Below are positions 14,550-28,881 of a DNA stretch of 35,866 nt, one piece after another. Where the stretch lies: assembly GCA_001771985.1 (NCBI GenBank), contig MERG01000052.1, forward strand, positions 11,613 to 47,478, in the 5' to 3' direction. The notes under the pieces were generated by a model that worked only from the letters and a program-made list of their open reading frames with translations, was not told where the DNA came from and ran no database searches. The translations under genes and the position numbers were made by a program. The stretch is from Betaproteobacteria bacterium RIFCSPLOWO2_12_FULL_62_13 (GTDB lineage: Bacteria; Pseudomonadota; Gammaproteobacteria; Burkholderiales; SG8-41). How positions within the stretch are numbered: the stretch's first letter is position 1; each line of letters starts with the position of its first letter.

Positions 14550-14616
14550 TGCCGATCAGTGCGCGGGTTCGATGAAGACATGGGCCATTTGCCGGATAAG
14601 ACATTTTACCTTTTCC

Positions 14617-14703
14617 GGCGCGCTACCTCTGAACTATTTCATCGGGATTACTGCCCCATCGCGTCGGCCGCGTGCGCGCCTGCACGGTCGCATCCCCGCA
14701 AGC
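14617..14703. repeat. Long direct repeat, copy 1
   Basis: GGCGCGCTACCTCTGAACTATTTCATCGGGATTACTG...CGGCCGCGTGCGCGCCTGCAC..TCGCATCCCCGCAAGC; copy 2 is 108 bp downstream. Confidence 0.9.
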
Positions 14704-14724
14704 GGGGCCCCTGCTCCGCGTTTC

Positions 14725-14811
14725 GGCGCGCTACCTCTGAACTATTTCATCGGGATTACTGTCCCTTCGCCTCGGCCGCGTGCGCGCCTGCACCATCGCA
14801 TTCCCGCGAGC
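14725..14811. repeat. Long direct repeat, copy 2
   Basis: GGCGCGCTACCTCTGAACTATTTCATCGGGATTACTG..., few substitutions relative to copy 1. Confidence 0.9.
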
Positions 14812-28422: not shown

Positions 28423-28746
28423 ATGACTTACGTTGTTACCGAGAGCTGCATCAAATGCAAATATACCGATTGCGTTGATGTGTGCCCGGTAGATTGCTTC
28501 CGTGAAGGCCCCAACATGCTCGTCATCGACCCCGACGAGTGCATCGACTGCACCCTTTGCGTCGCCGAGTGTCCGGTCGAAGCGATTTACGCGGAGGACG
28601 ACGTGCCCGACAACCAGCGCCACTGGACCCAGGTCAACGCCGAACTGGCAAAGGTCTGGAAGGCCATCATCGAAAAGAAGGATGCGCCGGCCGATGCCGA
28701 CGAATGGGCAAAAGTTAAGGAGAAGGAGCATCTGCTTGAGAAGTAG
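28423..28746 (+). CDS. fdxA: Ferredoxin of FdxA type (7Fe/8Fe)
   Basis: [62 protein letters not shown]. Confidence 0.97.
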
Positions 28747-28779
28747 GCAGGCGTTATCGGATGTCGGCATCGTCCGCGT

Positions 28780-28813
28780 TCCGCGGTCGCATCCCCAGAG
28801 GGGCCCCTGCTCC
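28780..28813. repeat. Dispersed repeat core CGGTCGCATCCCC..GGGGCCCCTGCTCC shared with the pgi/EI24 intergenic region
   Basis: cggtcgcatccccagaggggcccctgctcc here and cggtcgcatccccgcaagcggggcccctgctcc near 14686-14718. Confidence 0.75.
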
Positions 28814-28836
28814 ACGCTCCACGCGGATACGCCTCT

Positions 28837-28881
28837 GAATGGGCAAAAGTGAAAGAGAAGGAACACCTTCTGGAGAAGTGA
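28837..28881 (+). pseudogene. In-frame duplicate of the fdxA 3' end (encodes [14 protein letters not shown]-stop)
   Basis: Same 14-aa peptide as 28702-28746, offset exactly 135 bp, six synonymous third-position differences. Confidence 0.85.

Follow-up and report, generated by a model that had tools for sequence, protein, structure and literature searches.

In the 35,866-nucleotide stretch of DNA analysed here (the window, from genome G000) the ferredoxin gene fdxA has a doubled 3' end, and this is probably the work of a REP unit that sits there and has duplicated the end of the gene, so that the first copy (tail 1) is the one that is read and the second (tail 2) is a relict joined to the old downstream sequence. 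A gene end displaced by a REP in this way explains a pattern that can be mistaken for a functional readthrough extension.

The doubled end of fdxA and the REP-like hairpin

The complete fdxA gene (107 amino acids; 28423-28746, forward strand), recognised from its open reading frame and from orthologues with E<=1e-45 in 65 of 74 genomes of the family, closes with tail 1 (28702-28746, forward strand), the functional C-terminus of 14 amino acids with its TAG stop codon. Tail 2 (28837-28881, forward strand) carries the same C-terminus with a TGA stop, beyond which the sequence runs on to the downstream gene (28907); its assignment as a relict draws on the direct repeat, on the nature of the nucleotide differences and on comparisons with empty sites in relatives. 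As a first-pass annotation of the sequence had reported, the tails lie at these coordinates with a spacing of 135 bp, the frame from TAG to tail 2 is open, and the six differences between them are all third-position and synonymous when the last 14 codons (42 nt) are compared. The resulting identity of 36/42 is far above chance, the best unrelated site in the window giving 23/42.

The 90 bp that separate the tails are not unique: they hold a REP-like hairpin and also an inverted repeat of the stretch just 5' of tail 1. One arm of this repeat, segment A (28688-28701, forward strand; codons A-D-A-D), is the start of the duplicated segment and was located by a repeat search, lying immediately 5' of tail 1; the other, A' (28763-28776, forward strand), is an inverted copy of it in the spacer upstream of the REP, with 13 of 14 bases complementary to 28688-28701. 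A search of the same genome with the fdxA-end region gave 14 partial matches elsewhere, each of them centred on the spacer.

The unit at 28785-28813 (forward strand; core GGTCGCATCCCC-AGA-GGGGCCCCTGCTCC) is a REP-like element, that is, a short palindromic hairpin with many dispersed copies. Using the relaxed pattern GGTCRCATCCC-N-GGGCCCCTGYTC, with the reversed pattern as a control, we obtained 15 matches in G000 and 16-21 in G001-G003, and none for the control. Of 137 distinct copies collected from the genomes, 106 have G-C at one stem pair, 25 have A-T and 6 a mismatch, and because this pair covaries the hairpin is a maintained structure. The window unit shows no significant thermodynamic hairpin excess (z -1.0 and -0.3), and the structural argument therefore rests on covariation among the copies. 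The copies read GGTCRC..GYTCC, or GGARCAGG..GYGACC on the opposite strand, where GGAGCAGGGG...GGGGATGCGACC has the style of REP heads in other bacteria; a GTAG or CGTC tag at one end is absent from them, and no known RNA family scored above its gathering threshold. In a non-random survey of 133 copies many were situated at junctions between genes, and the hairpin may serve as a putative mRNA-stabilising or terminating 3' UTR element.

REPs of this kind are found in other settings as well. A second member of the family in the window (core 14686-14717) lies 5' of pgi between 73-bp direct repeats (14613-14685 and 14721-14793; 14613-14793 in all), and the flank of this copy may once have been the end of another gene, now a relict. 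At L304 (1496-1830), L260 (1443-1750) and L181 (in G055 and G003) a REP and a constant segment are repeated in tandem every ~105 bp; these arrays form another size class than the ~135-bp gene-end units. In G005, G006, G031 and G059 more REPs are located within ~3 kb of fdxA on the same contigs, and the rho-trxA-fdxA region may be a preferred REP site.

Occurrence in the family and decay of tail 2

We examined 62 of the fdxA loci found in the 65 genomes, most of the compared genomes being fragmented draft assemblies, and observed the order tail 1, stop, spacer, REP, tail 2 at about 14 of them, in genera g1, g2, g4, g7, g8 and g9 (G000, G002, G003, G004, G006, G015, G018, G023, G035, G043, G050, G055, G059 and G070). 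Remnants of the order are present in G001, G005 and G039, and most congeners in the larger genera do not have the arrangement. Longer versions exist: three tails with two REPs between them in G059, and two REPs with a decayed third tail in G043. At a separate locus, L143 (G047:C4:66932-67677), two complete fdxA genes stand in tandem, 87% and 79% identical to the protein of the window. An artefact of assembly or binning, which could be suspected from the 469 contigs and 7.6% contamination of the G000 assembly, is very improbable since the structure has been assembled independently in more than 10 genomes, with sequence variants of its own in each; misassembly was rejected on the same grounds.

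The comparison also bears on the possibility, raised in the first-pass annotation, that UAG readthrough produces a 44-residue extension of the ferredoxin that is under selection. The open frame in G000 is compatible with such a product. However, tail 2 shares the frame of tail 1 in only 2 of the 14 genomes having the arrangement, and the first stop codon differs among the 14, being TAA, TGA or TAG. Degradation of the second tail in relatives, which the annotation had itself set against a selected extension, is what we find: in G055, G006 and G050 tail 2 has 5-7 nucleotide differences in nonsynonymous codons, with an early stop in G006, and what is left of it in G003, G001, G023 and G005 is a truncated or frameshifted copy, or next to nothing. 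Tail 2 thus decays with time, and because neither frame nor stop codon is conserved and the tail itself decays we reject the extended product, to which we assign next to no probability.

Origin of the two tails

Which of the two tails is native can be read from relatives. Gene ends of REP-free congeners, together with the sequence that follows, match tail 2 and its downstream sequence (G009 compared with G015, G017 with G018). In counts that are descriptive, as congeners are not independent, the functional tails of congeners are closer to tail 2 than to tail 1 in G059 (5/5), G035 (8 v 2), G015 (15 v 3) and G070 (9 v 3), and G018 leans the same way (9 to 4). In G059, G035, G015 and G070, then, tail 2 resembles the native end and tail 1 is a diverged newcomer. 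The excess of synonymous change in tail 1 of these genomes falls mainly in codons ~96-107, which make up the repeated part, while the gene body just upstream is ordinary in this respect; in most genomes the two tails agree fully over the first 8 to ~36 nt of the repeat and diverge after that. For fdxA of G000 tail 1 is the closer one in 3 of 4 congeners, and this comparison does not decide which tail is native there. Tail 1 of G000 has an identity of 0.93 to the tail of G005, from another genus, and the gene body one of 0.875.

The first-pass annotation had also proposed that the tail was replaced from another ferredoxin gene after an insertion. Replacement after insertion comes close to the data, what was inserted being a REP-type unit that is common to the family; the other ferredoxin genes of G000 do not qualify as the source, the two paralogues being 43-47% identical and aligning only to about residue 94.

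The same REP has duplicated the ends of further genes. In the survey of 133 copies, which is non-random, strong direct repeats flank 25. Gene names for these cases were assigned from recognisable N- or C-terminal sequences and from neighbours. Duplicated 3' ends are those of a thiolase-like gene (G000, G007) and of rho (G031, G006), to which the tail of another gene in G055 (L306) can be added, and duplicated 5' ends are those of murC in two genera (G005, G050; L263 and L301) and of ddl (G055). The 25 also take in arrays with the ~105-bp period. In G005 the left copy at the murC REP remains behind murG as a truncated start of murC. At fdxA of G059 and at rho of G031 the units stand in series, and the old tails are more and more decayed along the array; in the latter tail 2 still encodes FFDSMRRG with synonymous changes only, tail 3 is substituted and tail 4 decayed.

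The thiolase case is informative in that tail 1 of G000 ends in VIFGSDATL and tail 2 in VLFGGPATV, and both types of ending are functional in the family, the former in G055 and G059 and the latter (LFGGPSTV) in G002, G036 and G039, whose thiolase genes have no REP unit. Nucleotide identities of the G000 tails are 0.83 (G036), 0.79 (G039) and 0.79 (G002) for tail 2, and 0.83 (G055) for tail 1. Since decay of a fresh duplicate cannot readily yield another allele type, the two tails are most likely of different origins; here too tail 2 resembles the native end and tail 1 is the newcomer. Similarity among the tails of REP-bearing thiolases, taken as a signature of transfer, did not significantly exceed expectation (permutation p 0.14).

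These observations can be brought together in a scheme in which a REP-type unit would settle at a gene end and the target, roughly 55-95 bp, would be duplicated in place. Later, an allele bearing the unit and one lacking it would recombine inside the tail, and the outcome would be a diverged tail 1 and REP joined to the native tail 2 of the recipient, left as a relict. In-place duplication at the time the REP became established is suggested by the young copies, which are near-identical and continue beyond the gene boundary (one mismatch in 92 bp at L301, two in 95 bp at L306, and a length of 81 bp in G002). In old or chimeric copies the match ends at the stop codon and the differences are synonymous, and recombination within the tail would explain both features as well as the higher identity at the start of the repeat.

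A simpler history would have the REP insertion copy the tail once, with all differences arising later and the coding tail 1 changing only synonymously. Copies that are identical or nearly so fit such a history (0 differences in G004, 1 in G002, 0 in the G007 thiolase, 1 in 55 at L241), and DNA flanking REPs is known to become duplicated. We nevertheless consider it unlikely that duplication is the whole story, as a non-coding tail 2 should gain nonsynonymous changes at least as fast, and the observed ratios of synonymous to nonsynonymous differences are 6:0 in G000, 11:0 in G059, 4:0 in G015 and 7:1 in G070. Moreover, in G059 and G035 it is the non-coding tail 2 that stayed near the tails of relatives and tail 1 that moved away, and the thiolase tails of G000 are two different allele types.

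Duplication followed by recombination, the scheme we favour, raises the question of how the exchange took place. Since the gene body ahead of tail 1 looks native in G035, G015 and G070, the left exchange has to be placed inside the short tail, which is unusual for ordinary homologous recombination. No donor was found for any of the diverged tails. The exchange may have been ordinary recombination after DNA uptake or the movement of a dedicated cassette.

The inverted repeat is of interest in this regard. At 17 fdxA loci A' fits the A of its own genome better (mean 9.5) than the A of other genomes (7.9), a fit as high being reached in 0 of 20,000 permutations (p about 5e-5), and in the thiolase gene GCCGTGCG, directly after the stop codon, is the complement of CGCACGGC within the gene. 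A' might reflect the way in which the unit is made, by hairpin-primed copying of the flank, or else serve as a guide to the target or form a conserved RNA stem. If it is a guide, a dedicated mobile gene-end cassette comprising tail, stop codon, inverted guide A' and REP could integrate into a matching gene end and supply its own 3' end. This would be a more specific form of the best explanation, with single-stranded DNA perhaps handled by an IS200/RAYT-like nuclease, and we regard it as conceivable though doubtful. In its favour the units are discrete, short and conserved in polarity, A' and A of the same genome covary, new units adjoin the gene in arrays, the left exchange points lie inside the tail, and Y1 transposase (Y1_Tnp) genes occur in 10 of 12 genomes tested. 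Against it, none of the REPs of the fdxA type lie around the Y1 transposase genes at the six loci examined, neither an excised form nor a donor has been seen, and ordinary recombination between strains could account for the loci as well. Only tentatively, then, might the ~135-bp REP units be viewed as miniature mobile gene-end cassettes, each carrying the synonymous end of one conserved gene and a complementary inverted guide, that integrate without breaking the gene, push its old end downstream and build arrays.

By either route the data suggest that REP units can carry replacement gene ends between genomes and that the C-terminus of a gene can be swapped for a foreign one that arrives with the repeat. 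Duplication of the end allows REP units to occupy the ends of essential genes without harm. Loci of the fdxA type offer polarised snapshots of the process at one gene in many species, including empty sites, young identical duplications, chimeric ends and decayed relicts, and they bear on the open question of how REP elements spread, described as unresolved in PMC8266576.

Comparison with known systems

The doubled gene end has features in common with several classes of element. Integrative elements insert into the 3' end of a gene and restore it with their own copy, as e14 does in icd and many islands do in tRNA genes. As in those cases, what completes the gene here is a partly synonymous 3' end that has come in from elsewhere, and the native end has been moved to the far side; unlike them, the unit is only ~135 bp, has a REP hairpin inside and forms arrays, and no integrase-sized ORF is present in it. 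Diversity-generating retroelements share with our loci a direct repeat of a gene 3' end (VR/TR) with a hairpin between the copies; we rejected this candidate, the changes being synonymous, of mixed types and without adenine bias.

In IS200/IS605 elements a guide on the 5' side of the hairpin selects the target by pairing with it (PMC8266576). Similarly, A' lies 5' of the hairpin and is complementary to a target, A, that comes after the hairpin. In contrast to these elements, A' is 7-14 bp in length and gene-specific rather than a tetranucleotide, a long duplication is formed instead of none, and the units are known here without a linked transposase.

The closest likeness is to the well-described REP, BIME and REPIN elements, which RAYT (TnpA-REP) transposases mobilise or maintain and which are likewise short, G+C-rich, dispersed hairpins near gene ends, occurring singly, in pairs or in arrays with flanking DNA. 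REPs can be tandemly reiterated with flanking DNA and can lie near or overlap coding regions (PMC3733652), and capture of the 3' end of the rayt gene as an inter-REP segment has been described in four cases (Nunvar et al. 2010, PMC2817692). The present units differ from a RAYT-associated REPtron in that no rayt with these REPs around it was present at the six Y1 loci, and from REPs of the GTAG and CGTC super-families in carrying neither tag. Among the open-licence papers searched we found none that describes REP units as recurrently replacing the ends of conserved genes in different genera. What separates our loci from the REP, BIME and REPIN elements is that conserved housekeeping genes are struck repeatedly across genera, and that the end that is read is a diverged copy while the native end has been displaced.
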